Shown: positions 10,592-64,000 of the stretch, piece by piece | How positions within the stretch are numbered: position 1 is the first letter of the stretch | How the letters are laid out: each line of letters starts with the position of its first letter | IMG/VR virus record: IMGVR_UViG_3300027899_000001 | Location: 1 to 64,000 of that record | Strand: one strand, 5' to 3' | Source: a virus | Length of the DNA stretch: 64,000 bases | Position numbers and translations under genes: made by a program | Notes under the pieces: model-generated | Told to the model about the DNA's origin: nothing | Database searches by the model: none | The model's input: the letters and a program-made list of their open reading frames with translations, nothing else

Positions 10592-13500
10592 ATGAAATCT
10601 ATAAAAAGATTAATTTTAACAATAATTTTAACCTTTGTATTAGGAGTACAATTACTTATGGCAATATTAACAGTAACAGGACAAACAATTATTAATTCCG
10701 ATACAACATGGAACGGATATTATGTTGATCGTTATGAACCTATGACTTTCACGTTTAGTAATAATTCTATAACATCTCAAAATTATTCTAATTACATGCT
10801 TCAGGCGGGAGATGAAGATATTCAACCAACTAATAATAATCTTGCGGGAGAAGTAATAACTGGTAATAGGTTAACATGGAACGGAACCGATATGACAAGT
10901 ATTTGTCATGGAGTATTTACAGGATGTAATATCAACGTTGTAATTAAATATAATTATCTTGAAAAAGTTCCTATGGGTCTTATACGCAAATCAGCAAGTA
11001 ATATGGTTAATACTTCTGGCGGCGTTGCATATAATATACTTAATAAAACATTCATAGGAACAGTAGTTAAAGGCATATCTAATGTTAATATCTATAATAA
11101 TACTTATTATTCAGATCGTACTTTTGCTAATACTCAATACGGAAGAGCATTAATAGATGTTTATACAAATACAGATCTTGTTCCTAATTCTGTAGCACAT
11201 AATACTAAGATTAAGAATAATATATTTTATACTAAATATCAAATAAATAATATACGTGTACTTGATAATGAAAGTTTAATTGGATTTGAATCTGATTATA
11301 ATTTATTTTATTGTGAATCAGGAACTCCTATGTTTGAAATATCAGGAACACAAATAACTTTTGCACAGTGGCAGGCATTAGGATATGATACTCATTCTGT
11401 AGTAGTTAATCCCAATTTTATAGACTTTGTTAATTTTGTTCCAACTACTAGACTAAATTATGGAACTAATTTAGGTTCTACTTGGCAAACTGGCTTATCT
11501 ACTTCAGCTGTTTGGATAGTTGGTTCTACTCCTACTACAAGTGATCAAAATGGTACTTGGCAGGTTGGTGCAAGAGTTTATGCTTCTTCAGCAACTGCAC
11601 CTACAGTAACAACTACTGCTGTCACATCTATAACTAGTACTACTGCTATTAGTGGTGGAAATGTGACTAGTGATGGTGGATCTGCAGTGACTGCCCGTGG
11701 CGTTTGTTGGAACACAAGCACTAATCCCACTATTGCTAATTCAAAAACTAGTAACGGAACTGGAACAGGATCTTATAGCAGTTCATTGACAGGATTATCA
11801 AATGGCGTAACGTATTACGTAAGAGCTTATGCTACTAATTCAGTGGGAACTGCATATGGTAGTAATGTATCATTTGTAGCTGAAAATGCTGTGGCTGGAA
11901 CTTATTATGTATCAACTACTGGTAACGATGCAAATTCAGGCACAATAAGTCAACCCTTTTTTACATTAAATAAAGCATGGACAGTAATTGGCCCAGGCGA
12001 TATTGTTTATGTGAGAGGTGGAACTTACCAATATTTAACATCGCAAGAATGTGTTGGTAAAAATGGAACTGCAGGAAATCTTATAAAAATTTGGGCTTAT
12101 CCGGGAGAGACACCTGTAATAACAAAAGCAGTGGGGTGGACGTATACTCATAGAGCAGGCATTTATTTTGTAGGTAGTTATTTCCATTGGAAAGGAATTG
12201 AAGTTAGTGGATTTACACAGATAGACGATAATGAATACGCAGGTTTTAATGTAGATGATGGTACAAATCATAACATATTTGAACTTCTTAATATTCACCA
12301 TAATGGTGGAAGTAATAGATTGATAAATCAAGACTGTGATGATAATTTGGTGTTAAATTGTGACTTTCATCATAATTACGATCCTCTTACTACTGTTCCT
12401 AGCGCTTATGGAAATGCAGATGGTATGGCAGCAAATCCTAGAGCTGGAACTACTAACACTATAAGAGGTTGTAGATTTTGGTCTAATTGCGATGATGGAT
12501 TGGATTTATATGGAGCGAACGGATTAGTGATTGTTGACAAATGCTGGGCGTGGAGTAACGGTTACAGAGAAGACGGTGTTACAAAAGGAGGTGATGGTAA
12601 CGGTATTAAATTAGGAGGCACCACCGGAGATTATTCTACAACTCATTTACGAACCGTCACCAATTCTTTAGCTTTTCATAATAGAAATGCTGGATTTACA
12701 CAGAACGTAGCGCGATGCATATCTCACATTTATAACAATACAGCCTATCACAATGCTGATGGTGCTGATGTATATAATTTAGGATTTGAATTTGAAGAAA
12801 CTTCTATCGTACATATTTTAAGAAATAATGTAGCTCATGCGAACCAACATCCTACAAATTTACAAGCAAATTACGGTAACTGTATTACATCAAATAATAC
12901 ATGGAATGGTCTTGTTACAGTCACTGATGCTGATTTTACAACTATTAGCTCTACAGGAGTTGATGGAAGCAGACAGTCAGATGGAAATTTACCAGCACTG
13001 TCATTCTTGCATTTGATAACAGGATCTGATTTAATTGCAGCAGGTACAAATGTAGGATTAATAACAGATGGAGATGGTGTTGCTTGGAATAATCCACCAT
13101 CAATGGGTGCATATGAGTATGTAAGTGGAAGTGTAGTAATACCTACAGTAACAACTACTGCTGTCACATCTATAACTAGTACTACTGCTATTAGTGGTGG
13201 AAATGTGACTAGTGATGGTGGATCTGCAGTGACTGCCCGTGGCGTTTGTTGGAACACAAGCACTAATCCCACTATTGCTAATTCAAAAACTAGTAACGGA
13301 ACTGGAACAGGTTCATATGTTAGTTCATTGACAGGGTTGTCTAATGGTGTGACGTACTATGTCAGAGCTTATGCTACTAATTCAGTGGGAACTACATATG
13401 GTAGTAATGTATCATTTGTAGCTGCAAATTCTGCTCCAGGAACTTATTATGTTAAAAACGGTGGTAATAATAATTTAGATGGATTATCAGATGCTACAGC

Positions 13501-16500
13501 ATGGGAAACAATAGATAAAGTTAATTCAACTATTACAGGAGGAAATACTGTTTTATTTAAGCGTGGTAGCACATGGCGTAATCAACAAATAAGACCTGTT
13601 GCTGGTTCAGCAGGAGCTTACACGACTTATGGAGCATATGGAACTGGAGCAAAACCAAAAATTTTAGGTTCTTTAACTGCAAATTCAGGATGGACTAATG
13701 TTAGTGGTAATATATGGCAAACTACCGGATGGACAAAAGATGTGGGAAATATCATTTTTAACAATGAACAAAGCTGTGGTCGTAAATTCATGACTGCTAC
13801 ACCTACACTTACTACTCAGGGGGATTTTTGGTACGATTACGTGAATGACAGAGTACGAATGTATTCTGTAGGAAATCCTGCATCTTATTATACTAATATT
13901 GAATTTGCTTTAAGTCAAGATGCTGTTGTTACAAGTTATAATGCTCCATATATAATCATTGAAGATTTAGACTTCCGTTACTGGGGAAATTGTGTTATAC
14001 AGAATGCTCGTAATTATAGTATTTATCGTAGATTAGATATAAGTTACATAGGTGGTGGAGATGCAGGAGAAACGCAAGGCGCTGCCTGGTATGATACACG
14101 ATGGGGTAATGGAATTCAGATGTGGGAAGGCGACGGATCTTATATTACAGTAGAAAGTTGTAAAATTGATCAAGTTTATGATGCTGGTATTTCACCTCAA
14201 GGCCAAGCGGGTTCTTGGACTATGCATGATATTTTTATAAGAAATAACATTGTAACTAATTGCGAGTATAATTTTGAATTTTGGTTAAGGGCTGGAGCCA
14301 CAGCTTACAATATCTATGTTGAACATAATGTATTTGCTTATGCTGGATATGGGTTTGCACATAATCAACGTCCAGATGCAATTCAAGGGCATAATTTGCA
14401 GATGGGAGGCATGCAAGCTACCAGAAATAATATTTATTTACGTAATAATATTTTTTATATGTCTTTGAATTATAATTATAGTGCATGGTGGTATAATCCT
14501 GGGCCAGGAACAACTCCTCCGGGTCCAAGTACTTATGATGATCTATATAATATCACATTTGATTATAATTTATATTACACTCCGGGCGTATATATAGGTT
14601 TTTTTGATGCACTTCCTACTATATTTAATACATTTGCACAATGGCAAGCAGCTTTTCAAGTAGATGAATCACACGGAAAGGGTGTTGATCCATTATTCGT
14701 TGATCCAGCAAATGGAGATTTTCATTTACAACCGGGTTCTCCTGCCATTGCAGCCGGATTAGCAGTAGCAGGAGTAACAACAGATTTTGATGGAGTTTCT
14801 TATGCAAGTACTCCATCAATGGGAGCGTTGGAATATGTTAGTCCTACTAATAATACTTATTATGTAAAAAATGGAGGAAATGATAATTTAAATGGATTAT
14901 CTGATTCTACAGCATGGGAAACTATATCTAAAGTAAATTCATTTATTAAAGGTGGTGATAAGGTTTTATTCAAACGCGATAGTGTTTGGCGTAATGAAGC
15001 TATATCTGTTGTTAATGGTTCAGCTGGAGCTTATACCACTTATGGAGCATATGGAACTGGGGCAAAACCTCGTATATTAGGCTCTGTTCAATTAAACTCT
15101 GGATGGACAAATGTAAGTGGTAATATATGGCAAAATAGTAATGCTGCTGTGTTAGCTAAACAAGTAGGAAATCTTATTTTTAATAATGAACAAAGTGTAG
15201 GTGTAAAAGTTGCCTCTGAAGCATTATTAAACGCACAGGGCAGATTTTATTGGAATTTTAGTACAGGTGTATTAAGAATGTACTCTGTAGGCAATCCTGC
15301 TCTTTATTACTCTAACATTGAAGCAGCTTTACAACAACAGACGGCTGATGTGTACGGACATTCATATATTAAGTTTGAAAATCTTGATTTTAGATATAGC
15401 GGTGAAGGGACTATTTTTGGGGATAGTAATTATATACAAGTGTATGATTGCAATATAAGCTATAACGGAGGAGCTTATACAGATGTAGGAGGGGGCACAA
15501 GAATAGGAGGAGGAATTGGTACATGGGATAATGCATCATATTGGGAAATATTAAGATGTAGGATTAGTAACGAATATGATGCAGGAATAACCATGCAAGG
15601 GACTGGTGTTACATTAATTCATGATATGATAATAAGAAATAATATTATTGAAAAATGTGAATATAATTTTGAATTTTGGGAAAGACCCAATACTGGACAA
15701 ATGTATAATATATGGTTTGAACACAATACGTTAGCATATGCAGGATATGGTTGGTCTCACACTCAACGTCCAGATTCTCAACAAGGGCATAGCATATATA
15801 TGGGAGGAATGTCAGTTCAAAGACATGACATATACATAAGAAATAATATTTTTTATTCAAGTATCAATGATAATATAGCGTTCTCTTATTACAATGATGG
15901 TTCTTATGATGATTTAATAAATATCACCTTTGATTATAATTTATATTACAATCCTGGAGTTAATACTGCTTTTGCAGATGCTCATGATATCATTTTTCTT
16001 ACATTTGCAAATTGGCAAGCAGCTGTAAGTGTAGATGAATCGCATGGAATAGGAACTAATCCTTTATTTGTTAATGCTGCTGGAGGTGATTATCATCTAA
16101 GTATAGGTTCGCCCGCTATTGCAGCTGGATTAGCAGTAACAGGAGTAACTACTGATTTTGATGGAGTTTCTTACAACTCTTCACCTGCAATGGGCGCATA
16201 TGAATATGTTCCAGGATCTTCTAACATATATTACATAGATCCAACTGGCGCAGATTCTGCAGGAAGAAATGGATCAAATGTAGCAGGACAACAATGGCTT
16301 ACACTTGCATATGCTATAAGTCGTGTTACTACAGGCGATACTATTCATGTTAATCCGGGAACATATAATATAAGTTCGCAAATTACTGTTCCTATTGGAA
16401 TAAGTATAGAAGGAGATGGAATTACTTCAATTTTACGTTCTACATATACAAGTGGTCCTACATTAAATTTAGCTAATTCAGTATTGGGAAGTGGAAATCA

Positions 16501-19500
16501 ATATATAGCTAATATTAAAATGGATGGTGTTTCTACTACCGCGCATACTGCTGTAAATGTATATAGAAGATCAAATGTATCAATATATAATTGTACATTT
16601 GTAGATTTTTTACAATGGGGTGTAAGATATAGAGGGCAAGATGCTGGTGAAGTAGAACCTACTTTGTGGGCAACTGGTAATTCATTTCATGATAATTCTG
16701 TTAATAATTGCTCTATGTATTATTATCCAGGTGGAGATGCTGATGTTGATAAACGAAACGGAAATGGACAAGGTCTTTTAGAAATAAGTGAACAACAAGG
16801 AATGAGAGTATATAATAATACTCTTATACAAACAGGTAGAACTACTTGGCATAATGGATACTGTATAAAAGGCATAATGGGTTATAATAAAGATATTAAG
16901 ATTTATAATAATATCATGACTAAAGCTGCATATACAGAAGCATATGGAATAACATGGGATTTTGTTTTAGAATTTTGGGAAAGTCGAGGAGGAATAGAAG
17001 TTTATGGAAATACTATTACTGGTGGATCTCTTGATTTTTCAGGAAGTGGAACTGAAAATGATACTACAACTCAAAAAGGAATATATGATTATGCTGTATG
17101 GATTCATGATAATTCTATAATGAATACTACTTTAAGCGCATACTCTAATACTCATGGAATATTAATAGAACAAAGCGCAACAGATGTAATTATTGAAAGA
17201 AACTGGATAGAAAATGTATGGGCTGGAATTTATTTTCCACTTACACCAAAAAGTAATCCTATGTATGGAACTATATTTAATAACATAACTGTAAGATATA
17301 ATGTAATAAAAAATGTAGGAACATCTGGAAATAATTTACAAGGGTTTGGAATTCATGGGCCTTATGCTGTTACAAATATGACAGGCAATAACATTCAATA
17401 TTATAATAATACTATAATTGGAAGAAGTGGTTCTAATTCATGGGGTATTCAAATTCCTGTATTAGGAACTTTAACAAATGTGTATGTAAGAAATAATATT
17501 GTACAAGGATTCTCAGGTGCTGGAAGTGCTGGTATATATTGCTATAACTATGGTACAGTTAACTATGCTTGGGTGCAATATAATAATTTGTATCAATGCG
17601 CAAATAGTAATGCACCATTATATGGTTTAAGTATATCTAATCTTACATCAGAAAGTGCGTATGCTGGTACAGTTCCTCCATTCGTATCTACTACAGATTA
17701 TCATTTAACTACAAGTAAAGATGGAATATATATAACTTCAGGCTTGACAGATAAAGATGGCGTTACGCCATCAAATCCTCCAGACATAGGAGCATATGAA
17801 TATGCACTAGTAAATGGTGTTTATTATATAGATCCAACTGGCGCAGATTCTGCAGGAAGAAATGGATCAAATGTAGCAGGACAACAATGGCTTACACTTG
17901 CATATGCTATAAGTCGTGTTACTACAGGCGATACTATTCATGTTAATCCGGGAACATATACAGTAACTACTCAAACAAGTGTACCAATAGGCATAAATAT
18001 TGAAGGAAATGGCATAGGTAGTTCTATTATTAGATCGCATTATATAGCAGGTGATGGAAATCTAAATAACGCATGTTTAGTGTTATCTGGAGGAACAAAT
18101 ACTGATCAACATATTAGTGGACTTACATTAGATGGAGATTCTTTATGGGGAGATAACGCTATAGTTGTATATAATAGAAGTAATGTAAGCATTTATAATT
18201 GTCAAGTAGTTAATTTTTTAACTCAAGGAATTAGATTTGATGGAAGTTCTCCAAGTTTAAGTGTAAATAACAGTCTTTATGGTTGCACAATAACTAATTC
18301 TGGCGGTATAGATACATCTGATAGACGAGCTAATATATTTATAAGAAATAATACAAGCCTACGTATTTATAATAATACTCTTAATCAAACTCTTAGAGTT
18401 TCAAATACAGGGTTAGGAATTAGATTAGAAGATGGAGTTTATGGTTGTAAGATATACAATAATTATTTATATGGAATACAACCTGGCGCTGATTGGTCAT
18501 TTACAATGGAATGTTGGTGTGCTGATACTGTTAATGGTGTAGGTTGGGGATTAGAAATATATGGAAATACTATAACAGGATTAATTGACTTTGGTTCTGG
18601 AGTAAGTAAAGGAACAGGTTCTTATACTTATGCTGTAAGTTTTCATGATAATGTAATGGGAACAGATGTTGCTCATGCTGTTACAGATTATCAACACGGT
18701 TTATTATTTGAATTAAATGGAAGCGATATTATTATTTATAATAACGAATTTAAATTTCTTGATCGTCCTATTTATTTTACATCAGGACAATTTAGTAATA
18801 TAGATATACATTCTAATATAATTAGAAATGTTCCAGCCAGTTATTCTGATGGAGCAGGTATTTTATTTATCGGAAGTGGGTCGCCTACATCAGAACAGAA
18901 TGTATATATACGAAATAATACTATTATTGCTCATACTGGTGGAGTAGGACCGGCACAATATGGCATTTTATTTGATGCAAGAGGTACAGTAAATAATTTT
19001 TACATACAAAATAATATTATTCAAGGATTTTCTTCTGCTCCGTATGAAAGTTATGGAACCACAGGATCTATAGGAACTTTGGTTGTTCAAAAAAATGTTC
19101 TTTATCTTAATGGAAATAGTAATAATATTAAATTAACATTAACACCTACATCTCTTACAAATGATTTAGGGCTTAAATATGATCCAGTGTTTGTAAATGC
19201 AGCTGCATATAATTTTCATATACAATCAACATCGCCTGCATTAAGAGCAGGTTTATATGTAGGATTAGTTTTTGATTATGATGATCAGTTTTGGAATAAT
19301 CCACCTTCTATAGGAGCATATGAATATATGGGTGCTCTTCCTTCATCTATTCCATCAGTTACAACTTCTTCTATTACTAATATTCTTGCAACTACTGCTT
19401 CTGGCGGTGGTACTGTAACACATGACGGAAGTTTAGCATTATCTTCTAGAGGTATATGTTGGAATACTTCAACAAATCCAACTGTGTTAAATTCTTCAAC

Positions 19501-22500
19501 AAATAATGGAGTATCAGAAGGGGTATTTACGAGTTCACTTGTAGGATTAAATCCAAGTACTCATTATTATGTTAGAGCATATGCTGCAAATTCATTAGGA
19601 GTAGGATATGGAGCAAATGTTGAATTTGATACTCTAAAAAATACATCAATTCCAATTGTTACTACTACAGCAATTACTGATATAAGTACTTTTACTGCAA
19701 CTGGAGGCGGAAATGTAACTCATGATGGAAGTTTAGCAGTAACTTCAAAGGGTGTTTGTTGGTCTGTTTTACCAAGTCCTACTATTGATAATACATTTAA
19801 TACTAGTGGTACAGGAGAAGGGTCGTATGTTAGTTATTTAACTGGATTAAATGCATCAACACATTATTATGTAAGAGCATACGCTATTAACGCAGAAGGA
19901 GTTGGATATGGATATGATGTTTCATTTAATACATTAGGTTCAGGAATTTCTTTAGTTAATGGACTTATGGGATATTGGAAATTAAATGAAACAACAGGAA
20001 GCGCGTTAGATTCTGTAGGAAGCATAAATGGTGCCGTTTTTGGTGCTACACAAGGAGTTCCTGGTAAAATAAGTACTGCATATCGTTTTAATGCAGCAAC
20101 AAATAGTTATATTGATTTAGGAATTTCTTGTAAACCTACAACTGCAATATCTTTTGCCGTATGGCTTAATCCAAGCACATTTAACGATATTTATTCAGGA
20201 GTAATAAATAATACTACTTGGGTTAATCCGACAGAACAATATGGCTATAATGTATTTCTTGATAGTAGTAAAATGTTATTTGAATTATTTAATGGCGATG
20301 TTCAAAATTCATTATGGAGCAATGCTACAATAACACCAAATACTTGGCATTTTATTGTTGGAACATGGGATGGCGCAAAAATGAAACTTTATATTAATAA
20401 TGTACTTGATGCAAGCCAAGCTAGAACAACTACTATAGGATACGATCTAGCATCTGTTTTAAGATTTGGTTCTCATTCTGCACCATATGATTATACAGGT
20501 GTTATTGATGAAATAGGAATTTGGAATAGAGCTTTGACTATTTCTGAAGTATCTACATTATATAATAGTAGTAACGGATTAACTTATCCATTCGATGCTT
20601 CAACCAATATTAGTATTCCTACTGTTACAACTTCTTCAGTTACAAATATATTTACAACTAGTGCATCTTGTGGTGGTAATGTAACTCATGATGGAAGCAC
20701 TGCAGTAACAGCTAAAGGTGTATGTTGGAATACATCAATAAATCCAACTGTATTAAATTCTTCAACAAATAATGGAACAGGAACAGGAGTATTTACAAGC
20801 GCAATAACAGGATTAAATCCGAGCACACATTATTATGTTAGAGCTTATGCAACTAACGCAGTTGGAACTGCTTATGGTTCTAATGTTCAATTTGATACAT
20901 CTACATCTCCTATAGTAACCTCAATTCCTACCGTTACAACTTCTTCAGTTACAAATATATTTACAACTAGTGCATCTTGTGGTGGTAATGTAACTCATGA
21001 TGGAAGCACAGCAGTAATAGCTAAAGGTGTATGTTGGAGTATTTTATCAAATCCAACTATTAGTAGTGCATTAACTAATGATGGCACCGGTGAGGGATCA
21101 TTTACAAGCGCAATAACAGGATTAAATCCGAGCACACATTATTATGTTAGAGCTTATGCAACTAATGCAGTAGGAACGGGATATGGAAATCAAATTACAT
21201 TTGATAGTAGTATTCCAGTTTCAGTTATTTCAACTTATTACATAAATGCTATAAATGGAAATGATGCTAGTGCAGGAACTACACAAAATACAGCCTGGAA
21301 AACAGTTGCAAAAGTTAATGCATATACATTTATTCCAGGAGATACTGTTTTATTTAGAAGAGGTGATACATGGAATGAAAGATTGGTTGTAGCACAAAGT
21401 GGTATAAGTGGATATCCTATAACATATTCTAATTATGGTGTTGGCGCTAATCCTATATTTAATGCACAAAATATTCGTCCTAATGGAATTAGAATTGAGG
21501 GCGTATCTTATATAATCATTGATGGTATTGATACCATAAATAGTACTGAAGAAGGAATTGTAGTATTTGACTGGAATGAAATAGGATCATCTAATGTAAC
21601 AATTAAAAACCTTACATCTTTTAATAATGTAAAGGCTGGAATTTATATGTCTATACCTTATGGAACAATAATGGATTGTTCTACAATAAATAATGGTCTT
21701 ACTACACAACATCATGGTATATATATGGGAAGATCTTCTATCTTAAATAATATATATGCTGATAATTGGTTAATAGAAAGATGCCATTCATATGGCAATA
21801 CCGGTGCAGGATATCAAATTTATAATAGTGGATCCGGCACACTAAGATATTCTGTAACAAATAATAATGGGGGCACATCTGGTGGATGGGGTGCAGTAAT
21901 TGATACATTAGCTCCTAATAAAAATGTAAATGTTTATTATAATGTTTTATATAACAATGATTATTGGGGATTAGAAGTAGCTAATCTTAATAGTGGTGAT
22001 GCTGTAAACATTTATAATAATGTTATGTATAATAATGGACAAGCAGATTATGGCGCAGGTTTACATGTAGCTAACAATGATAATGTAACTGATGGCTCAA
22101 TTAAAATAAAAAATAATTTAATTTTTTCAAATGTATATTATGATTTTCAACAATCACAAAGTATATCAAAATATACAGTATCTAATAATGATTATTGGAA
22201 ATCCTTTGGAAATATAATTGTATGGAATTCAATTACATATCCACAAACTCAATTTGCATCATATCAAGTTGCATCTGGCGATATATTATCAATATCAAAA
22301 GATCCTTCAGTTGTAAATGCTGCAGCTTATAATTTTAATTTAACTTCTTCATCTTCATGTAAAAATGCAGGAGTAAATGTAGGATTAACTACAGATTTTA
22401 TTGGAACTGGAATAATAAATTTCCCAGATATTGGTGCTTATGAATTTATAGAACTTAATATTTCAACCCCTACTGTTACTACATCTTTAATAACAAATAT

Positions 22501-25500
22501 TGCAATTACTAGTGCATCTTGTGGTGGTAATGTATCTCATGATGGAAGTACAGCAGTTACAGCTAAAGGTATTTGTTGGAATACTTTTTCAAATCCTACA
22601 ATATACGATTCTTCTACAACAAATGATGGAATAGGAGAAGGAATATTTTATAGCGCGCTAACTAACTTAAATCCAAGTACTCATTATTATGTTAGAGCTT
22701 ATGCAACAAATGAAATGGGAACAGCATATGGAAACGAAGTAACTCTTGATACAAGTAAAAATTCATATTATGTAAATATTGTTAATGGAAATGACTTAAA
22801 TAGTGGAACTACAGAAAATACTGCGTGGAAAACTATAACAAGAGTTAACACAGCATTAACAACTCTTCCTGCTGGTTATGCTATACGTTTTAGAAAAGGA
22901 GATACATGGTATGGAACAATAAATATTGGAAAATCCGGAGCTGCTAATTTTCCAATTACTATAGGTTCTTATGGAACTGGCGCTAATCCAGTAATAACTG
23001 GATTTACTACAGCATCCTCATGGACAAATGCAGGAAATGGTATATATTATACGTCTTTAACTGCGGAATCTTCAACGTTAATGGTATCATTAGATGGTTA
23101 TCAAGCACAAATGGGTAAATGGCCTGCAATAGGTTGGAATCATATAGAAAGTACAAATGGAACAAGTACAATAACTGACACAGCTATAACAAGTACTTAT
23201 AACTGGATAGGTGCACAAGTAGTTATAAGAAAAAATCGTTGGGTTATTGATAAATGTATAATAACTAATCAAAGTGGAAATACAATAACATACAATGATC
23301 CAGATGCGGGATCTTATCAAGCAGTAGCAGGATGGGGATATTTTATACAAGCAGATTTAAGTACATTAGTATCTTATGGAAATTGGTATCATGATCATAG
23401 TGCAAATAGATTTTATATGTATTTTGGCGCTGAACTTCCCGCAAATCATGTTGTAAAAATAAGTTCTTTAGATAGATGTATTTATAATAGTAATTATGAT
23501 CATATAACAATTGATGGTCTTACGCTTGAAGGTGCTAACATAGATGGCTACTATGGATATAATAGTGCATCAAATCATATTATTCAAAATTGTAATATTG
23601 GTTTTTCTGGTCGTCATGGAATATATTTACAATATCCATCAAATTGTATTGTACAAAATTGTAGTATTTATAGTTCAAATGATCATGCCGTTTATTCAAC
23701 TTCTCAAGTTGGTGTAAGTGGACCGTTTACTATTAGTAGAAATACTATCACAAATACTTTTATATTTCCTGGAACTACAGATAGCGGTGATAATCATGGA
23801 AATGCATTATATTCTTGTGCAGATAATACATTAATTCAAAATAATAGAATTCTTAATACAGGACATCTTCCAATTAATTGGGGAGGAACTAATTCAATAA
23901 TAAGAAATAATATTATAGATACATTTTGTTTTACAACTGATAATGGTGCGGGTATTTATACTTATGGTGATAGAAATACTGGAAAACAAGTTATTGGTAA
24001 TATAGTATTAAATGCTATTAGTGCTACAGACGGTACCGATATAAATGATCCTTTATATCCTAATACTCATTTTTCTCATGGCTTATATACTGATGGATTT
24101 AGTGCACATGTTTCATTTATAGGAAATACTGTTGGCAATGTAAATGCATTTGGTATTCGTATGAGTGCTAGTACTAATATTGTACTTAAAGATAATACAT
24201 TTTATCAATCTTATGGATTTGTTTCAGTTTTAAGATCTGATACTCTTATAAGAGATATAAGTGTGTATAATAATGTATTTATATCTAATAATTTAGATGA
24301 ACATTCTCCAGAAGGTATTAAATATGAATCTTATTTTACTCCTATTTCTAGTTCAACTGCAACATCTGAAATTCAAGGATGGGGCTATTGGAATAATAAT
24401 TATTATTATACAAATACTGAAACTGCAATGGTAGTATATGGTACAGATACTGGTCAATGTGCTCCAAAAAGTTTAGAAAAATGGAAAACAAAATATAATC
24501 ATGACACAACTTCTGTATTTTATCCTAAGTTTTCAAGCTATACAATAAATTCATCAGGAACGAACATGTTATCTAATTCTAGATTTGATTCAGATATTAA
24601 TAACTGGACAGGAACATCATTAGCTTCAATATCTTGGGTATCTAATTCTAGTCTTGATGGTGGTGCATTGAAACTTAGAACAAATAAAAAAGATTATAAT
24701 TGGAATTGGTGGGATTCTGATGATTATTTCTATTCATCAATTGGCGCAGTGGAAAGTAATAAAACATATATAATTAAGCTTTTAGGAAAATCTGAATTAG
24801 CAAATAAAACTATTTCTGTTCGTATGTATCAAACAAGTACGGGAAATTCTATTCAACAATTTTTTACTTTACCAAGCACAAGTGTCAATAAAGAGATATT
24901 ATTCAAATATCCTCAAACAGATCCTGCTGCTTCATTACGTTTTGCTGGTGGAGACGGTGATGCATCAGTATATTTTGATAATATTTATTGCTATGAAGCA
25001 AGTGTAAATCTTATAGACGTTGCTGCTACTAATTTTCATTTTATTTATAATACATCAGAAAATATAAATAAGACATATAGTTTAAGCGCTCCAATGAATG
25101 ACATAAAAGGTAATTATTATGCTGCTGGAATGTTAGATTTATCTACATGGAATTCATTAGTTCTTTTTGGAACAGGTACTGTTACTGAAGGAAGCACTGC
25201 AATTACATATGTTCCTACTGTTACTACATCTCCAGTTACAAATATATTTTTAACTAGTGCTTCTACTGGAGGTAATGTAACTAATGGTGGCGGATTAACT
25301 GTTACATCAAGAGGCGTATGTTGGAATACATCTATAAATCCAACTATATTAAATTCTTCAACAAATAATGGAACAGGAACCGGAGTATTTACAAGTGCAT
25401 TAAGTAACTTAAATCCAAGTACTCATTATTATGTTAGAGCTTATGCTGAAAATTCACAAGGTATAGGATATGGTTCTAATGTTCAATTTGATACGTCACC

Positions 25501-27163
25501 AAATATTTCACTTGCAACTGTTACAACTGGAACAATATCTAATATATTTACAACTAGCGCTTCTTCAGGAGGTACAGTTGTACATGATGGAAGTACATTA
25601 GTTACAGCTAGAGGAGTATGTTGGAATAATTTAATTAATCCTACAATATTAAATAGTAAATCTATAGATGGTACCGGAGAAGGTGTATTTACAAGTGCTT
25701 TAATTAATTTGAATGCAAGTACACATTATTATGTTAGGGCATATGCAACTAATGCGGTTGGAACTGCTTATGGTTCTAATGTTCAATTTGATACAAGTAC
25801 ATTAGATGTCTCCATTAGTATTTCGCTTCCTGTTGTTAGTACAATTGCAGTAACAAACATATTATTAACTAGTGCTTCTTGTAGATGTGATATAACATCA
25901 GATGGCAGTGCTAGTGTTACAGCTAGAGGTGCATGTTGGAATACATCAATAAACCCAACAGTTTCTAATTCTCACACAGTAGATGGATCTGGAACAGGAA
26001 TATACACAAGTTCTTTATTAGCATTAAATCCAAGCACACACTATTATGTTAGAGCTTATGCTACAAACGTAGCAGGAACAGCATATGGACTCAATGTTCA
26101 ATTTGATACTAATGCTATTTCCGTTCCTACTATATTTACAAATATTATAACAGATATTAGTTTATTTACAGCAACTGGAGGAGGAAATGTAACTCATGAT
26201 GGAAGTTCTGCTGTAATAACAAAAGGAATATGTTGGTCAATTTCTTCAAATCCTACAATCTTAAATCCGTCAACAAATGATGGAAGTGGTACAGGTTCTT
26301 ACATTAGTTATTTAACAGGATTAAATTCAAGCACTTATTATTATGTTAGAGGTTATGCTACAAATTCTGCAGGTGTTGGCTATGGACAAGTTGTAACATT
26401 TAGTACTTTATCAGCACCAGGAAATTCTTTATTTAGTGGGCTTATGGGATATTGGGCATTAGATGAAATTTCTGGACCTGTGTTAGATTCTTATGGAAGT
26501 ATAAATGGAACAAATTATGGAGCAACGCCAAATGTTCCTGGAAAACTTAATACTGGATATTATTTCGATGCATTAGAACATGATTATATTTCATTTGGAA
26601 ATGTATGTAAACCAACAGCAGGTTTAAGTTTTTCTATGTGGATAAAGGCTCCCGCTCAAAATGATATATTTGCCGGTGTAATAAATAATAATTATTGGTA
26701 TAGCGCCGGAAATCAGGCAGGCTATAATATTTTTATAGATAGTAGCAAATTATTGTTTGAATTATCTAATGGCGCATCAACTTCTTTATATAGTAATAAA
26801 CTAGTTGATGATAATGAATGGCATTTTGTAGCTGGAACTTGGGATGGTTCAATAATGAAAATTTATATTGATAGTTCTGTTGCTGATGCTAGTTTAAGTA
26901 GAACAACTCCATTGGCATATGATGTAACATCAACATTGCGTTTTGGATCTCATTCTGCACCATACGATTATACAGGTATTCTTGATGAAGTTGGAATATG
27001 GAATAGAGCATTAACTCCAACAGAAATAGGTACTTTATATAATGATGGAAATGGTTTAGGATATCCATTTGCAACTCAGGAAGTTAGTACATCATTACGT
27101 TTCTTAACAAATGATGGAAAATACTTAACCTCGAATGATAAAATGATATTCGCAAATACATAA
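10592..27163 (+). CDS. Giant modular surface or fibre protein: beta-helices, FN3 and LamG domains
   Basis: 5523 residues in one uninterrupted frame, a quarter of the window. Residues 1-27 look like a signal peptide or membrane anchor (MKSIKRLILTIILTFVLG). Then come, roughly: beta-helix (30-333), FN3 (337), beta-helix (435), FN3 (851), beta-helices at 950, 1420, 1879 and 2409, FN3 at 2920 and 3019, LamG-like domain (3124-3338), FN3 at 3341 and 3445, beta-helix (3546), FN3 (3958), a long beta-helix (4060) with a carbohydrate-binding jelly-roll-like insert (4659-4803), four FN3 (about 4872-5270), a second LamG (5283-5494), and a tail (FLTNDGKYLTSNDKMIF). All 11 FN3 modules keep a GxCW motif. Beta-helices are rich in NIYNNT/RNNI ladders as in pectate-lyase-like folds. 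Likely role: binding or degrading host polysaccharide, as a tailspike or long fibre. No catalytic residues can be assigned by eye. The module style is that of Bacteroidota surface proteins. Confidence 0.85.
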   Translation: MKSIKRLILTIILTFVLGVQLLMAILTVTGQTIINSDTTWNGYYVDRYEPMTFTFSNNSITSQNYSNYMLQAGDEDIQPTNNNLAGEVITGNRLTWNGTDMTSICHGVFTGCNINVVIKYNYLEKVPMGLIRKSASNMVNTSGGVAYNILNKTFIGTVVKGISNVNIYNNTYYSDRTFANTQYGRALIDVYTNTDLVPNSVAHNTKIKNNIFYTKYQINNIRVLDNESLIGFESDYNLFYCESGTPMFEISGTQITFAQWQALGYDTHSVVVNPNFIDFVNFVPTTRLNYGTNLGSTWQTGLSTSAVWIVGSTPTTSDQNGTWQVGARVYASSATAPTVTTTAVTSITSTTAISGGNVTSDGGSAVTARGVCWNTSTNPTIANSKTSNGTGTGSYSSSLTGLSNGVTYYVRAYATNSVGTAYGSNVSFVAENAVAGTYYVSTTGNDANSGTISQPFFTLNKAWTVIGPGDIVYVRGGTYQYLTSQECVGKNGTAGNLIKIWAYPGETPVITKAVGWTYTHRAGIYFVGSYFHWKGIEVSGFTQIDDNEYAGFNVDDGTNHNIFELLNIHHNGGSNRLINQDCDDNLVLNCDFHHNYDPLTTVPSAYGNADGMAANPRAGTTNTIRGCRFWSNCDDGLDLYGANGLVIVDKCWAWSNGYREDGVTKGGDGNGIKLGGTTGDYSTTHLRTVTNSLAFHNRNAGFTQNVARCISHIYNNTAYHNADGADVYNLGFEFEETSIVHILRNNVAHANQHPTNLQANYGNCITSNNTWNGLVTVTDADFTTISSTGVDGSRQSDGNLPALSFLHLITGSDLIAAGTNVGLITDGDGVAWNNPPSMGAYEYVSGSVVIPTVTTTAVTSITSTTAISGGNVTSDGGSAVTARGVCWNTSTNPTIANSKTSNGTGTGSYVSSLTGLSNGVTYYVRAYATNSVGTTYGSNVSFVAANSAPGTYYVKNGGNNNLDGLSDATAWETIDKVNSTITGGNTVLFKRGSTWRNQQIRPVAGSAGAYTTYGAYGTGAKPKILGSLTANSGWTNVSGNIWQTTGWTKDVGNIIFNNEQSCGRKFMTATPTLTTQGDFWYDYVNDRVRMYSVGNPASYYTNIEFALSQDAVVTSYNAPYIIIEDLDFRYWGNCVIQNARNYSIYRRLDISYIGGGDAGETQGAAWYDTRWGNGIQMWEGDGSYITVESCKIDQVYDAGISPQGQAGSWTMHDIFIRNNIVTNCEYNFEFWLRAGATAYNIYVEHNVFAYAGYGFAHNQRPDAIQGHNLQMGGMQATRNNIYLRNNIFYMSLNYNYSAWWYNPGPGTTPPGPSTYDDLYNITFDYNLYYTPGVYIGFFDALPTIFNTFAQWQAAFQVDESHGKGVDPLFVDPANGDFHLQPGSPAIAAGLAVAGVTTDFDGVSYASTPSMGALEYVSPTNNTYYVKNGGNDNLNGLSDSTAWETISKVNSFIKGGDKVLFKRDSVWRNEAISVVNGSAGAYTTYGAYGTGAKPRILGSVQLNSGWTNVSGNIWQNSNAAVLAKQVGNLIFNNEQSVGVKVASEALLNAQGRFYWNFSTGVLRMYSVGNPALYYSNIEAALQQQTADVYGHSYIKFENLDFRYSGEGTIFGDSNYIQVYDCNISYNGGAYTDVGGGTRIGGGIGTWDNASYWEILRCRISNEYDAGITMQGTGVTLIHDMIIRNNIIEKCEYNFEFWERPNTGQMYNIWFEHNTLAYAGYGWSHTQRPDSQQGHSIYMGGMSVQRHDIYIRNNIFYSSINDNIAFSYYNDGSYDDLINITFDYNLYYNPGVNTAFADAHDIIFLTFANWQAAVSVDESHGIGTNPLFVNAAGGDYHLSIGSPAIAAGLAVTGVTTDFDGVSYNSSPAMGAYEYVPGSSNIYYIDPTGADSAGRNGSNVAGQQWLTLAYAISRVTTGDTIHVNPGTYNISSQITVPIGISIEGDGITSILRSTYTSGPTLNLANSVLGSGNQYIANIKMDGVSTTAHTAVNVYRRSNVSIYNCTFVDFLQWGVRYRGQDAGEVEPTLWATGNSFHDNSVNNCSMYYYPGGDADVDKRNGNGQGLLEISEQQGMRVYNNTLIQTGRTTWHNGYCIKGIMGYNKDIKIYNNIMTKAAYTEAYGITWDFVLEFWESRGGIEVYGNTITGGSLDFSGSGTENDTTTQKGIYDYAVWIHDNSIMNTTLSAYSNTHGILIEQSATDVIIERNWIENVWAGIYFPLTPKSNPMYGTIFNNITVRYNVIKNVGTSGNNLQGFGIHGPYAVTNMTGNNIQYYNNTIIGRSGSNSWGIQIPVLGTLTNVYVRNNIVQGFSGAGSAGIYCYNYGTVNYAWVQYNNLYQCANSNAPLYGLSISNLTSESAYAGTVPPFVSTTDYHLTTSKDGIYITSGLTDKDGVTPSNPPDIGAYEYALVNGVYYIDPTGADSAGRNGSNVAGQQWLTLAYAISRVTTGDTIHVNPGTYTVTTQTSVPIGINIEGNGIGSSIIRSHYIAGDGNLNNACLVLSGGTNTDQHISGLTLDGDSLWGDNAIVVYNRSNVSIYNCQVVNFLTQGIRFDGSSPSLSVNNSLYGCTITNSGGIDTSDRRANIFIRNNTSLRIYNNTLNQTLRVSNTGLGIRLEDGVYGCKIYNNYLYGIQPGADWSFTMECWCADTVNGVGWGLEIYGNTITGLIDFGSGVSKGTGSYTYAVSFHDNVMGTDVAHAVTDYQHGLLFELNGSDIIIYNNEFKFLDRPIYFTSGQFSNIDIHSNIIRNVPASYSDGAGILFIGSGSPTSEQNVYIRNNTIIAHTGGVGPAQYGILFDARGTVNNFYIQNNIIQGFSSAPYESYGTTGSIGTLVVQKNVLYLNGNSNNIKLTLTPTSLTNDLGLKYDPVFVNAAAYNFHIQSTSPALRAGLYVGLVFDYDDQFWNNPPSIGAYEYMGALPSSIPSVTTSSITNILATTASGGGTVTHDGSLALSSRGICWNTSTNPTVLNSSTNNGVSEGVFTSSLVGLNPSTHYYVRAYAANSLGVGYGANVEFDTLKNTSIPIVTTTAITDISTFTATGGGNVTHDGSLAVTSKGVCWSVLPSPTIDNTFNTSGTGEGSYVSYLTGLNASTHYYVRAYAINAEGVGYGYDVSFNTLGSGISLVNGLMGYWKLNETTGSALDSVGSINGAVFGATQGVPGKISTAYRFNAATNSYIDLGISCKPTTAISFAVWLNPSTFNDIYSGVINNTTWVNPTEQYGYNVFLDSSKMLFELFNGDVQNSLWSNATITPNTWHFIVGTWDGAKMKLYINNVLDASQARTTTIGYDLASVLRFGSHSAPYDYTGVIDEIGIWNRALTISEVSTLYNSSNGLTYPFDASTNISIPTVTTSSVTNIFTTSASCGGNVTHDGSTAVTAKGVCWNTSINPTVLNSSTNNGTGTGVFTSAITGLNPSTHYYVRAYATNAVGTAYGSNVQFDTSTSPIVTSIPTVTTSSVTNIFTTSASCGGNVTHDGSTAVIAKGVCWSILSNPTISSALTNDGTGEGSFTSAITGLNPSTHYYVRAYATNAVGTGYGNQITFDSSIPVSVISTYYINAINGNDASAGTTQNTAWKTVAKVNAYTFIPGDTVLFRRGDTWNERLVVAQSGISGYPITYSNYGVGANPIFNAQNIRPNGIRIEGVSYIIIDGIDTINSTEEGIVVFDWNEIGSSNVTIKNLTSFNNVKAGIYMSIPYGTIMDCSTINNGLTTQHHGIYMGRSSILNNIYADNWLIERCHSYGNTGAGYQIYNSGSGTLRYSVTNNNGGTSGGWGAVIDTLAPNKNVNVYYNVLYNNDYWGLEVANLNSGDAVNIYNNVMYNNGQADYGAGLHVANNDNVTDGSIKIKNNLIFSNVYYDFQQSQSISKYTVSNNDYWKSFGNIIVWNSITYPQTQFASYQVASGDILSISKDPSVVNAAAYNFNLTSSSSCKNAGVNVGLTTDFIGTGIINFPDIGAYEFIELNISTPTVTTSLITNIAITSASCGGNVSHDGSTAVTAKGICWNTFSNPTIYDSSTTNDGIGEGIFYSALTNLNPSTHYYVRAYATNEMGTAYGNEVTLDTSKNSYYVNIVNGNDLNSGTTENTAWKTITRVNTALTTLPAGYAIRFRKGDTWYGTINIGKSGAANFPITIGSYGTGANPVITGFTTASSWTNAGNGIYYTSLTAESSTLMVSLDGYQAQMGKWPAIGWNHIESTNGTSTITDTAITSTYNWIGAQVVIRKNRWVIDKCIITNQSGNTITYNDPDAGSYQAVAGWGYFIQADLSTLVSYGNWYHDHSANRFYMYFGAELPANHVVKISSLDRCIYNSNYDHITIDGLTLEGANIDGYYGYNSASNHIIQNCNIGFSGRHGIYLQYPSNCIVQNCSIYSSNDHAVYSTSQVGVSGPFTISRNTITNTFIFPGTTDSGDNHGNALYSCADNTLIQNNRILNTGHLPINWGGTNSIIRNNIIDTFCFTTDNGAGIYTYGDRNTGKQVIGNIVLNAISATDGTDINDPLYPNTHFSHGLYTDGFSAHVSFIGNTVGNVNAFGIRMSASTNIVLKDNTFYQSYGFVSVLRSDTLIRDISVYNNVFISNNLDEHSPEGIKYESYFTPISSSTATSEIQGWGYWNNNYYYTNTETAMVVYGTDTGQCAPKSLEKWKTKYNHDTTSVFYPKFSSYTINSSGTNMLSNSRFDSDINNWTGTSLASISWVSNSSLDGGALKLRTNKKDYNWNWWDSDDYFYSSIGAVESNKTYIIKLLGKSELANKTISVRMYQTSTGNSIQQFFTLPSTSVNKEILFKYPQTDPAASLRFAGGDGDASVYFDNIYCYEASVNLIDVAATNFHFIYNTSENINKTYSLSAPMNDIKGNYYAAGMLDLSTWNSLVLFGTGTVTEGSTAITYVPTVTTSPVTNIFLTSASTGGNVTNGGGLTVTSRGVCWNTSINPTILNSSTNNGTGTGVFTSALSNLNPSTHYYVRAYAENSQGIGYGSNVQFDTSPNISLATVTTGTISNIFTTSASSGGTVVHDGSTLVTARGVCWNNLINPTILNSKSIDGTGEGVFTSALINLNASTHYYVRAYATNAVGTAYGSNVQFDTSTLDVSISISLPVVSTIAVTNILLTSASCRCDITSDGSASVTARGACWNTSINPTVSNSHTVDGSGTGIYTSSLLALNPSTHYYVRAYATNVAGTAYGLNVQFDTNAISVPTIFTNIITDISLFTATGGGNVTHDGSSAVITKGICWSISSNPTILNPSTNDGSGTGSYISYLTGLNSSTYYYVRGYATNSAGVGYGQVVTFSTLSAPGNSLFSGLMGYWALDEISGPVLDSYGSINGTNYGATPNVPGKLNTGYYFDALEHDYISFGNVCKPTAGLSFSMWIKAPAQNDIFAGVINNNYWYSAGNQAGYNIFIDSSKLLFELSNGASTSLYSNKLVDDNEWHFVAGTWDGSIMKIYIDSSVADASLSRTTPLAYDVTSTLRFGSHSAPYDYTGILDEVGIWNRALTPTEIGTLYNDGNGLGYPFATQEVSTSLRFLTNDGKYLTSNDKMIFANT
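11600..11769 (+). repeat. 170-bp direct repeat, copy 1 (FN3 module)
   Basis: Bases 11600-11769 are identical to 13142-13311, 1542 bp downstream. Both encode the first part of an FN3 module (PTVTTTAVTSI...). Perfect identity, including all silent sites, shows a recent duplication or gene conversion rather than old divergence. Confidence 0.9.
13142..13311 (+). repeat. 170-bp direct repeat, copy 2 (FN3 module)
   Basis: Second copy of the identical FN3-coding segment at 11600-11769. Beyond it the two modules differ at silent and coding sites, so the exchanged tract has sharp limits. Confidence 0.9.
16235..16367 (+). repeat. 133-bp direct repeat, copy 1 (beta-helix start)
   Basis: Bases 16235-16367 are identical to 17828-17960, 1593 bp downstream. 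Both encode the opening of a beta-helix domain (DPTGADSAGRNGSNVAGQQW). The rest of the two domains has diverged. Confidence 0.9.
17828..17960 (+). repeat. 133-bp direct repeat, copy 2 (beta-helix start)
   Basis: Second identical copy of 16235-16367; it marks the start of the next beta-helix in the giant protein. Confidence 0.9.
20624..20700 (+). repeat. 77-bp direct repeat, copy 1 (FN3 module)
   Basis: Identical to 20933-21009, 309 bp downstream, in adjacent FN3 modules of the giant gene. A further stretch of near identity (ACAGGATTAAATCCGAGCAC) follows in both modules at the same 309-bp offset. Confidence 0.85.
20933..21009 (+). repeat. 77-bp direct repeat, copy 2 (FN3 module)
   Basis: Second copy of 20624-20700. 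The 309-bp offset equals one FN3 module (103 residues including linker), consistent with tandem module duplication. Confidence 0.85.
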
Positions 27164-62234: not shown

Positions 62235-62246
62235 AGAATGAATTAC

Positions 62247-62262
62247 TTTTATTTATATATTC
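62247..62262 (-). promoter_or_regulatory. Putative late promoter (minus strand)
   Basis: GAATATATAAATAAAA on the minus strand, 12 bp before the ATG at 62234 and downstream of the tmRNA terminator. Confidence 0.6.
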
Positions 62263-62283
62263 TTTATGTCTAAATTGAATTGA

Positions 62284-62309
62284 CAAAAAACCCCCACTGA
62301 GGCTGGGGG
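62284..62309 (-). terminator. Terminator of the tmRNA gene
   Basis: CCCCCA/TGGGGG on the minus strand (62304-62309 with 62291-62296) with a 7-nt loop and a T6 run; among the strongest hairpins in the window. Confidence 0.92.
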
Positions 62310-62540
62310 TAAATCTCCTACCAACGAGTGCTTCTTAAGCAGCCATTTGTAATGCGTAACTATTTTCGCCGTTTACTTGCGTGTTGAGACATTCATTATT
62401 TCCCTTAGTATACAATCTAAACCAAATCATCCCCATTAAAAGCAATATCTCTTTTATAAAGATTTGTGGAGATGGTGGGATCCGACCCCACGTCTTGCAT
62501 ACCTACTCTATAACTAGCTCTTGCGAGCATTCTCAATATC
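62310..62540 (-). ncRNA. ssrA: Circularly permuted (two-piece) tmRNA
   Basis: On the minus strand the acceptor half comes first: hairpin GCTC-GCAA-GAGC (62528-62517), then AGGTATGCAAGAC, T-arm GTGGG/CCCAC (62491-62487 with 62479-62475) and CATCTCC (62474-62468). After a ~33-nt spacer the coding half begins GGGGATGATTTGGTTTAGAT (from 62434), like E. coli tmRNA GGGGCUGAUUCUGGAUUCGA. GGGGATG and CATCTCC form a full 7-bp acceptor stem (one G-U). TTGTATACT and AGGTATGCAA form P2 across the permutation. The tag frame (62370-62335) reads GENSYALQMAA then TAA, like the GE...YALAA tags of Bacteroidota. There is no anticodon arm and CCA is not encoded. The RNA should rescue stalled ribosomes and tag their products for proteolysis. 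The two pieces would be produced by excision of the spacer. Confidence 0.9.
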
Positions 62541-62548
62541 TTAAAGAA

Positions 62549-62556
62549 CAAATATA
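62549..62556 (-). promoter_or_regulatory. Bacteroidota-type -7 box (TATATTTG) of the tmRNA gene
   Basis: TATATTTG on the minus strand fits the TAnnTTTG -7 consensus of the Bacteroidota housekeeping sigma factor and would place the transcript start near 62541, just before the acceptor half. A good -33 TTG at the usual spacing is not evident. This gene may be read by host polymerase, unlike the late genes. Confidence 0.45.
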
Positions 62557-62600: not shown

Positions 62601-62951
62601 TTAAACTTTAGCTTTTGTTGCTCTTTTTCTTGGAGCTGTAACAGGTTTAACAGTTTCAACTGGTTGTGTTGGAGGTGCTGGAGGTGCTGGAGGATTAACT
62701 ACTTGAGGATCTTCAGTAGGCGTATTAAATAATTTATTAAGACCAAAAAATCTCCAAAGTACATAATAAATAACAAATATTGCTAACCAAATTCCTAATA
62801 CTCCATGAAGTAATCCTTTAGTAGCTACAAATGCAAAAAATAATATTAATATATTAACATATTGTACCCAATATTTTTTAAATTCCGGCAATGCTGTATT
62901 TATTGCCCATCCTTTTAATACTTCCCATAATTTTGTTAAAAAGTTTTTCAT
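62601..62951 (-). CDS. Membrane protein with Pro-rich tail
   Basis: A 116-residue protein. Two membrane segments (YVNILILFFAFVATKGLLHG; GIWLAIFVIYYVLWRFFGL) are followed by a Pro/Ala-rich, finally basic tail (APPAPPTQPVETVKPVTAPR). Not recognised. The size and two-span topology would suit a holin-like or secretion-accessory protein, without stronger support. Confidence 0.65.
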   Translation of the reverse strand: MKNFLTKLWEVLKGWAINTALPEFKKYWVQYVNILILFFAFVATKGLLHGVLGIWLAIFVIYYVLWRFFGLNKLFNTPTEDPQVVNPPAPPAPPTQPVETVKPVTAPRKRATKAKV

Positions 62952-63086: not shown

Positions 63087-64000
63087 TTAAATTCCTAATG
63101 TTGTTCCACCGGCTTCAGGTGCTGTTTCTGTTCCTCCTGTTTCAGTGCCAGGTTCAGTAGGAGCGCCAAGGCCAAGATCTTCTCCCCCGCCACCCATACC
63201 TAAACCGCCGCCAAGATCCATTCCTCCGCCCATTCCACCAGTTGAAGTTCCAGGAACTCCTCCTTCTTCGCCTTGAGCTGCATTAATACGTTTAACATTT
63301 TGAGCAATACGAGTAAGTTGTTCTCTTCTTTCTTTCTTATATCTTTCATTTAATTTCATATCTTCTTCAGTAAAATCCATATATTTTTCAACTAAAAATT
63401 TTGGATCAAAATACATTCCATCTACTGTTATATTTCCTTCAGCATCAACTTCTTGTTGTTTAATATTCATTAATTCACCAACTATACCAGATCCTTGTCT
63501 AGCTATGTCTCTTTTCTTAGCCTCAGTAAATAAGTTTTCTTCAATGAATTCAAGACCAATAGCACCTTTTAATGCTTTATCTTTTGCAAACTCTGGATGT
63601 TTTAAACAAAATTGAATCCAAGTAGGTTTTAATAATATATCTTGAAGTATAGAACGAATACGATTAATAAAATAATTAAATCTTATTTCTTCTCTTGCAA
63701 TGCTTTCTCCGCCAGTTGTCCAATTAGAACCGCCAGATGCACCTTCTTCTCCACTACTTGAAAATCTATCTTTTGGAATTTTTGTTTCAATAATAAATCT
63801 TTTCCAAAAATAATCAAGAGCCATTGTTCCTGTTAAATCAAATCCCTGAGGAGCAAAAGAATCCACTTCAACTTGTCCACCACCTTCTTTTGATGGAAAG
63901 ATATATTGTTTTGCAAATGAAAAATTTGGAGTTCCATTAATTGTTACTTCACCACTGTGATAATCTATTGTAACATCTTCTTTATACATTGCACGTAATT
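63087..64000 (-). CDS. Portal protein C-terminal part (T4 gp20-like), truncated by window edge
   Basis: The frame is open to base 64000, so the N-terminal part lies outside; the Met at 63989 is internal. DYFWKRFIIETKIPKDRFSS, then REEIRFNYFINRIRSILQDI and PTWIQFCLKHPEF, match the conserved stem and wing of T4 gp20-type portals. MDFTEEDMKLNERYKKERRE resembles the crown helix. The C-terminus is a Gly/Glu/Thr-rich flexible tail (GGMGGGMDLGGGLGMGGGGE). The portal dodecamer is the DNA channel at the head vertex and docks the large terminase encoded at 31407. Confidence 0.88.
   Translation of the reverse strand, partial: LRAMYKEDVTIDYHSGEVTINGTPNFSFAKQYIFPSKEGGGQVEVDSFAPQGFDLTGTMALDYFWKRFIIETKIPKDRFSSSGEEGASGGSNWTTGGESIAREEIRFNYFINRIRSILQDILLKPTWIQFCLKHPEFAKDKALKGAIGLEFIEENLFTEAKKRDIARQGSGIVGELMNIKQQEVDAEGNITVDGMYFDPKFLVEKYMDFTEEDMKLNERYKKERREQLTRIAQNVKRINAAQGEEGGVPGTSTGGMGGGMDLGGGLGMGGGGEDLGLGAPTEPGTETGGTETAPEAGGTTLGI

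Follow-up and report, generated by a model that had tools for sequence, protein, structure and literature searches.

The minus strand of the window, i.e., the whole stretch of 64,000 nucleotides analyzed here, taken from the start of a virus record of 405,016 bases, carries a circularly permuted (two-piece) tmRNA (ssrA) gene with its halves in swapped order at approximately 62285-62532. Two-piece tmRNAs are usually described from three bacterial lineages and from mitochondria. The gene described here seems to belong to a new lineage of two-piece tmRNAs outside the alpha, beta and cyano models, present in huge phages of Bacteroidota type.

In a scan of the whole window at Rfam gathering thresholds, the family RF04321 (tmRNA_permuted) was the sole match, located at 62335-62516 on the minus strand (64.5 bits versus a cut-off of 47, E 3.7e-10). 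Independently, ARAGORN called a permuted tmRNA at 62244-62556 with the tag GENSYALQMAA. An earlier note on this DNA had proposed a permuted tmRNA on this strand and had held that the proposal would fail if no covariance model recognized the region or if an intact single-piece reading existed. The RF04321 match and the ARAGORN call bear the proposal out, and no one-piece reading was found. The next tmRNA model under permissive settings was beta_tmRNA (RF01850), with 44.1 bits far below its cut-off of 84, and the window did not exceed the cut-offs of alpha_tmRNA (RF01849) and cyano_tmRNA (RF01851).

On the minus strand, the acceptor half comes first and comprises a leader hairpin, the P2 3' strand, the T arm and the acceptor 3' strand. 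It is followed by a 31-nt spacer and then by the acceptor 5' strand, a D-like loop, the P2 5' strand, the tag frame, the stop-codon hairpin and a terminator (Table 1). The order of a one-piece tmRNA (RF00023), in which the GGGG end comes first and the acceptor 3' end last, is reversed here. In the centroid fold of the stretch, the acceptor and P2 helices, the T arm and the leader hairpin are all present, and both pairings across the permutation given in the earlier note are correct (GGGGATG, 62434-62428, with CATCTCC, 62474-62468; TTGTATACT, 62415-62407, with GGTATGCAA, 62503-62495). The spacer it had placed near 62435-62466 is also present, its extent being corrected to 62465-62435. Folding energy by itself was not significant (z -0.82 and -0.80); support for the gene comes from the covariance model and from covarying positions among its relatives.

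Table 1. Features of the permuted tmRNA locus in the window (positions are those of the window).
Feature	Position	Strand	Basis or remark
Permuted tmRNA (ssrA) gene, leader hairpin to terminator	62285..62532	-	RF04321 and ARAGORN tmRNA*; outer ends approximate
Leader hairpin GCTC-GCAA-GAGC, 5' side of acceptor half	62517..62528	-	Fold
P2 3' strand GGTATGCAA	62495..62503	-	9 bp with 62407-62415
T arm GTGGG-GTCGGAT-CCCAC	62475..62491	-	T stem 5/5 bp in 20/20 loci, many pair types
Acceptor 3' strand CATCTCC, then A, C	62466..62474	-	CCA incompletely encoded (ACA)
31-nt spacer, predicted to leave the precursor	62435..62465	-	15-166 nt across 20 loci
Acceptor 5' strand GGGGATG with G3.U70 pair; predicted 5' end of coding piece	62428..62434	-	Pairs with 62468-62474 across the spacer
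P2 5' strand TTGTATACT	62407..62415	-	Pairs with GGTATGCAA, 62503-62495
Tag reading frame GENSYALQMAA and stop	62335..62370	-	ARAGORN
H5-like hairpin TGCTT-AAG-AAGCA containing the stop codon	62329..62341	-	All 5 bp in 17/20 loci, covarying
Intrinsic terminator ACCCCCA-GCCTCAG-TGGGGGT-TTTTT	62285..62310	-	
Small protein encoded between portal gene and tmRNA; probable membrane protein (by eye)	62601..62951	-	
T4-like portal gene, C-terminal part; syntenic marker upstream of tmRNA	63087..63989	-	PF07230, E 2.7e-24

The full frame of the portal gene extends over 63087-64916 of the record. A portal protein search found 20 virus loci and a portal alignment search 42, and the permuted tmRNA was located behind the portal gene in 15 distinct relatives. 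Further members, in which the portal gene lies outside the stretch, were recovered with a pattern for the coding end. The resulting comparison set comprises 20 distinct loci, window included (as L122, the same contig as L051), after removal of L125, L130, L152 and L176/L177 as copies; the clade includes contigs of 405 and 323 kb. No close relatives of the tmRNA were found at the DNA level among named phages. Furthermore, the contigs of three relatives (L134, L138 and L174), all of them fragments, yielded no tmRNA, so the gene may be dispensable; L134 has a similar small frame after its portal gene (by eye).

The anchor pattern was widened beforehand for variants, and all 20 candidate regions held anchors. 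Since the strand-placing anchors fix acceptor pairs 1-3, 6 and 7 (G3.U70 included) together with the final AA of the tag, only pairs 4 and 5 test the acceptor stem, with limited choices. Both are standard pairs in all 20 loci, pair 4 being G-C in 17, C-G in two and G-U in one, and pair 5 being A-U in 12, G-C in four, C-G in three and U-G in one; 70 of 254 swapped acceptor strands likewise pair fully. The T stem, which lies outside the anchors, pairs completely throughout the set compared with 14 of 364 cases with swapped partners, the T loop having been chosen for best pairing (length 7 in 17 loci, 6 in three). An acceptor stem with the alanine-identity pair G3.U70 and a T arm are present in the window; in the other loci, G3.U70 is part of the anchor. 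Similarly, complete stop-codon hairpins, including that of the window, contrast with 31 of 328 swapped combinations, and one position shows U-A, C-G, A-U and G-C types across loci. A P2 helix of at least 7 bp at the usual distance was clear in 16 of the 20 loci in a best-helix search, and the leader hairpin also occurs in relatives with changed stems (by eye, alignment). A PK1 pseudoknot before the tag was not found; RNAalifold yielded no structure on 16 rows, with approximately 30-36 nt between P2 and the tag.

Moreover, 16 of the 18 members scored passed the RF04321 cut-off (missed by L131 and L358, with L150 and L151 outside the count), and no clade member in the scan against all Rfam families reached the cut-offs of RF01849, RF01850 and RF01851 (L007, L147, L150 and L151 left out). 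Judged by sequence comparison, the tRNA-like domain of the clade covaries, and the tag frame and the stop hairpin are retained across it.

Among the tags of the 20 loci are GENSYALQMAA, GENVYDYQMAA, GENSYEYRMAA and GEQFKEYRMAA as well as GETVYEMAMAA, GEKVTELAMAA, GVNKNEMAMAA and DANIYEMQMAA. Methionine occupies the third place from the end, an unselected position, in 19 of the 20 tags, the exception being L124, which ends in IAA. The 'QM insertion' that the earlier note regarded as unusual is therefore the usual x-M-A-A ending of the family and not an idiosyncratic insertion. Its remark that the tag starts as in Bacteroidota holds (GEN, cf. GENNYALAA), and many clade tags start with GE-; the Bacteroidota genes compared had been retrieved by a pattern designed for GENNYALAA. 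AMAA endings are also present in Bacteroidota-phylum genomes (L334-L336), so the MAA ending is not a phage invention.

The portal protein (PF07230) supports the assignment to a T4-like phage. In the phage collection, it matched 31 records, namely 15 Prevotella Lak phages, six uncultured phages, five Tenacibaculum phages, two records of Sphingomonas phage PAU, two Chryseobacterium phages and one Flavobacterium phage. The top matches were the 15 Lak megaphages with approximately 41% identity, followed by uncultured huge phages, phage PAU and the Tenacibaculum, Chryseobacterium and Flavobacterium phages; the terminase matched 2493 records, again with Lak phages first. A strict Shine-Dalgarno motif preceded none of 46 open frames of at least 100 residues and a loose motif two, these frames being unchecked as genes and one of them starting at the window edge without upstream sequence. 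Shine-Dalgarno motifs are rare in Bacteroidota, and their absence fits a Bacteroidota host. The Bacteroidota promoter motif was not enriched in the window, where TATATTTG at 62549-62556 corresponds to chance level, and was therefore not used as a host clue; portal relatives in bacterial genome contigs were not found either. Based on portal relatives, missing Shine-Dalgarno motifs and the GEN tag start, the phage probably infects Bacteroidota, as the earlier note had assumed.

Several further features of the window were recorded. Open frames with low coordinates 29775, 44356, 49210, 60497, 60992 and 61404 encode otherwise different proteins with a common N-terminal stretch like MKAxYVFEKFxEESDPIxDMGIG (by eye), of which a strict motif search recovered two of six. 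We take this start to resemble a capsid-targeting leader removed by a head protease. Copies of an HNH-like homing-nuclease gene (MNHxKxY...ENHHIIPKCLGG, by eye) are located at 29035, 30855, 36616 and 55234 of the window and at 66262-67014 of G000; both genes tested contained NUMOD3 motifs. One open frame of 5523 residues (10592-27163) lies near frames rich in collagen-like GIQG repeats.

The phages closest to the clade carry a tmRNA of the other form. In Lak-B4 (L142, 10483-10892), a one-piece tmRNA (RF00023, 47.3 bits, cut-off 47) with the tag DEIEFRMAA (by eye) stops approximately 140 bases ahead of the portal start (start by eye), and Lak-C1 (L371) has a one-piece tmRNA of 49.4 bits with the tag DEIDFRMAA (by eye). 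Two Lak-like virus contigs gave one-piece scores of 47.3 and 46.2 bits, and the uncultured huge phages LR756500 (tag GNNAEMRMAA) and LR756504 gave 95.5 and 65.2 bits, respectively. The permuted match was absent in all four named one-piece records. PTm1, PAU, MA9V-2, MaF61, pT24, LR756501 and LR756502 had neither form over the cut-off, and a permuted tmRNA was found in none of the six isolated phages PTm1, PAU, MA9V-2, MaF61, pT24 and immuto. In the portal tree (38 rows, rooted at the midpoint only), the 16 rows labelled as permuted, among them L131 and L135 despite scores below the RF04321 cut-off, are all on one side of one branch (98/93), which was recovered in 100% of 200 bootstrap trees. 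Ten rows are unlabelled, being fragments on which no tmRNA was found or Lak-like rows without a positive score, and five of these lie inside the permuted side. The permuted rows adjoin the Lak clade, the two groups uniting at 100/99; the position of LR756500 is unsure due to long branches.

The search for the same layout suggested in the earlier note succeeded among phages with the 20 loci described above. Of 395 genomes from the phylum of Maribacter flavus (Bacteroidota), 32 showed a permuted-model match at E 0.001 and only one exceeded the cut-off, in a scan using filters that lose some weak matches. Five of the 31 genomes below the cut-off were inspected (L333-L337), and ARAGORN assigned the one-piece form to all of them. 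The single match over the cut-off (G250; L332 1410-1807, L360) is a permuted tmRNA with the tag GKVIQMNNAPVRLAA on a bacterial contig, next to tRNAs and phage-type DnaB, helicase and PolA genes; the contig perhaps contains a prophage carrying an unrelated permuted tmRNA. Taken together, a phage branch seems to have changed its RNA design, while its likely hosts and its Lak relatives keep the one-piece form.

Regarding the origin of the permuted form, it is plausible that the permutation occurred independently inside the phages. The full scenario is a permutation in the phage lineage independent of the bacterial and mitochondrial events. The ancestor common to the clade and the Lak phages would have had a one-piece, -MAA-tagged tmRNA beside the portal gene, which the sister clade of Lak would have turned into a two-piece gene, with the resulting spacer being open to insertion of small structured RNA cassettes moving between phages. 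It is offered tentatively, as one that may well be incorrect. Acquisition of an already permuted gene from an alphaproteobacterium, a betaproteobacterium, a cyanobacterium or their phages is rather unlikely, though AN-tagged permuted tmRNAs are common in virus contigs. The scanned members stay below the three corresponding model cut-offs and the GE- tag starts are those of Bacteroidota, both of which argue against acquisition. Furthermore, the core tree joins the clade with the Lak tmRNAs (96/88, Lak inside the clade) and separates it from the AN-tagged permuted genes (98.5/95; LR756504 also fell into this group). Each class was represented in this tree by no more than 18 rows (AN-tagged permuted genes, 18 of 37; one-piece genes, 18 of 111; GEQVEMAMAA-like genes, 12 of 12), and the AN-tagged class, set by tag only, may mix alpha and beta types.

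A single clade comprising all permuted genes was initially tested with 5000 replicates, which are too few, and received AU p 0.040 and SH p 0.12. In a better search on the same 42 of 72 rows, a single permuted clade gave AU p 0.086 for the full data, 0.20 for the tRNA-like part and 0.42 for the tag part. The corresponding values were 0.053, 0.17 and 0.47 for the clade joined with AN-tagged genes and 0.72, 0.27 and 0.32 for the clade joined with Lak, so that none of these arrangements is rejected at 5%. Separate permutation in the phages is therefore favored by the phage tree and the tags and not shown by the RNA sequences, the sequence tests giving no proof. The tmRNA has also switched sides of the portal gene, for which permutation alone fails to account.

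Permuted tmRNAs were also observed in other virus contigs. A second phage family with GEQVEMAMAA-like tags comprises L003, L010, L012, L028, L060, L062, L070, L077, L080, L100, L113 and L115; in L070, a neighboring protein is closest to one of Flavobacterium phage immuto (44%), itself without a permuted tmRNA. The huge phage contigs L064 (379 kb), L076 (307 kb) and L101 (296 kb) carry permuted tmRNAs of alphaproteobacterial type that reach the alpha model.

The spacers of the clade contain structured elements common to phages whose tmRNA cores have diverged. Between L131 and L357, the phages of which belong to different subclades of the portal tree, the spacers share 94% identity over 66 nt, and another common element connects L318 and L322 (91% over 100 nt). 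Both elements occur in tandem in the L318 spacer, its copy of the first being 80% like that of L131 over 44 nt, and a diverged version of that element, 81% identical over 36 nt and with altered stems (by eye), is present in L123. Further common elements were found in L132/L151 and L127/L007. The first element occurred in seven virus contigs, six with the element in the tmRNA spacer (three having the same spacer) and one a match in high-GC DNA that is due to chance; the other element occurred in four, all from the clade. A pattern match of element A in L387 was rejected, as it is not a tmRNA spacer. Apart from tmRNA, no Rfam family matched up to E 0.5 in six loci, three of them bearing spacer elements. 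It looks as if the spacer is a site at which phages exchange small structured cassettes. Homing-type nucleases perhaps aid this exchange; L127 has a frame resembling a homing nuclease (by eye), without a Pfam match, on each side of its tmRNA.

Concerning function, the gene probably encodes a working two-piece tmRNA of the phage. Host tRNA enzymes would cut one transcript, with RNase P generating the 5' GGGG end, a 3' nuclease trimming the acceptor end and the CCA-adding enzyme completing it, the window encoding ACA and not ACCA. The acceptor stem and P2 would keep the two RNA pieces together, and the RNA would be charged with alanine. It would work with host SmpB, since no SmpB gene was found in the 405,016 bases of the record, which may be incomplete. 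Ribosomes stalled on mRNA broken or cut during infection would then be freed by the phage tmRNA, and a phage-specific tag ending in M-A-A would be added, an end that host ClpXP-type proteases can probably read. In evolutionary terms, the clade would have replaced or rearranged the one-piece tmRNA still held by its Lak sister group.

Two other roles were weighed against a working tmRNA. The tRNA-like domain could act as a decoy that sequesters host SmpB and blocks host trans-translation, the tag being incidental. Mycobacteriophage DS6A reportedly has an RNA consisting only of a tRNA-like domain that inhibits tmRNA (PMC4131195, PMC11915505), and the very compact coding half, in which PK1 was not found, would agree with such a role. 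However, the open tag frame is kept in the clade, including methionine as third residue from the end, and the stop-codon hairpins are complete and covarying in 17 of 20 loci, the final AA being an anchor and uncounted. As both would be needless for a decoy, their retention counts against this role, which we consider improbable. Absence of a detectable tmRNA on the L134, L138 and L174 contigs would be compatible with a functionless relic carried along, but the T stem and the stop-codon hairpin covary over strongly diverged sequences, pointing to continuing selection and making a relic highly improbable. A working two-piece tmRNA is accordingly the preferred reading.

Phage-borne tmRNAs have been reported before. 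The earlier note knew of no permuted tmRNA in a T4-like Bacteroidota phage; phage two-piece tmRNAs as such are already published, and what seems new is the lineage outside the alpha, beta and cyano models, together with the switch of tmRNA form that separates sister phage groups and the structured spacer cassettes common to diverged genes. In the part of PMC9004378 consulted, a two-piece tmRNA is reported for the marine phage Melnitz, its gene being related to alphaproteobacterial ones, and ARAGORN assigned 53 of 133 phage tmRNA structures to the two-piece form, of which 50 came from marine or aquatic phages. RF04321 and three bacterial clades with permuted genes are described in PMC11915505, tmRNAs of huge phages in general are mentioned in PMC7162821, and one tmRNA of a marine megaphage, its form not being stated in the passages seen, in PMC9723777. 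The phages listed with ssrA in the consulted part of PMC4131195 are all of Bacillus or Mycobacterium. The portions seen of PMC4383926, PMC7198788 and PMC10747093 contained nothing bearing on permuted tmRNA in such phages, and in those of the Lak papers PMC6784885, PMC8346664, PMC8755567 and PMC11165621 the terms tmRNA and ssrA were absent. Among the matches listed from the open-licence literature, no title or opening lines reported a permuted tmRNA in a Bacteroidota phage.

The permuted clade and its Lak sister group represent a natural pair for studying how and why tmRNA genes become permuted. The clade also raises the questions of how having ribosome rescue and a degron of its own benefits a phage, and of whether the spacer is used as a site by mobile RNA cassettes. 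Moreover, a tmRNA that ARAGORN as run here did not report is added to the features described for Lak phages.

Compared with known systems, the gene shares with that of Melnitz its phage-borne, two-piece nature, whereas the scanned members described here miss the alpha, beta and cyano models and their likely hosts use one-piece tmRNA. With alphaproteobacterial tmRNA (RF01849), it has the layout in common, down to an acceptor-half hairpin that immediately precedes P2 (by eye), but the window scores below the model cut-off, and clade tags mostly start with GE- in contrast to AN- in alphaproteobacteria. The one-piece tmRNA of Bacteroidota (GENNYALAA) is similar in tag start and codons (GGCGAAAAT) and differs in the order of the halves and in its tag ending, LAA. 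Finally, the one-piece tmRNA of the Lak phages, a sister clade by portal, likewise adjoins the portal gene, and the tags DEIEFRMAA and DEIDFRMAA have the -RMAA end in common with GENSYEYRMAA and GEQFKEYRMAA of the clade; the Lak gene, however, is unpermuted, approximately 400 nt long and located ahead of the portal gene, whereas that of the clade lies behind it.
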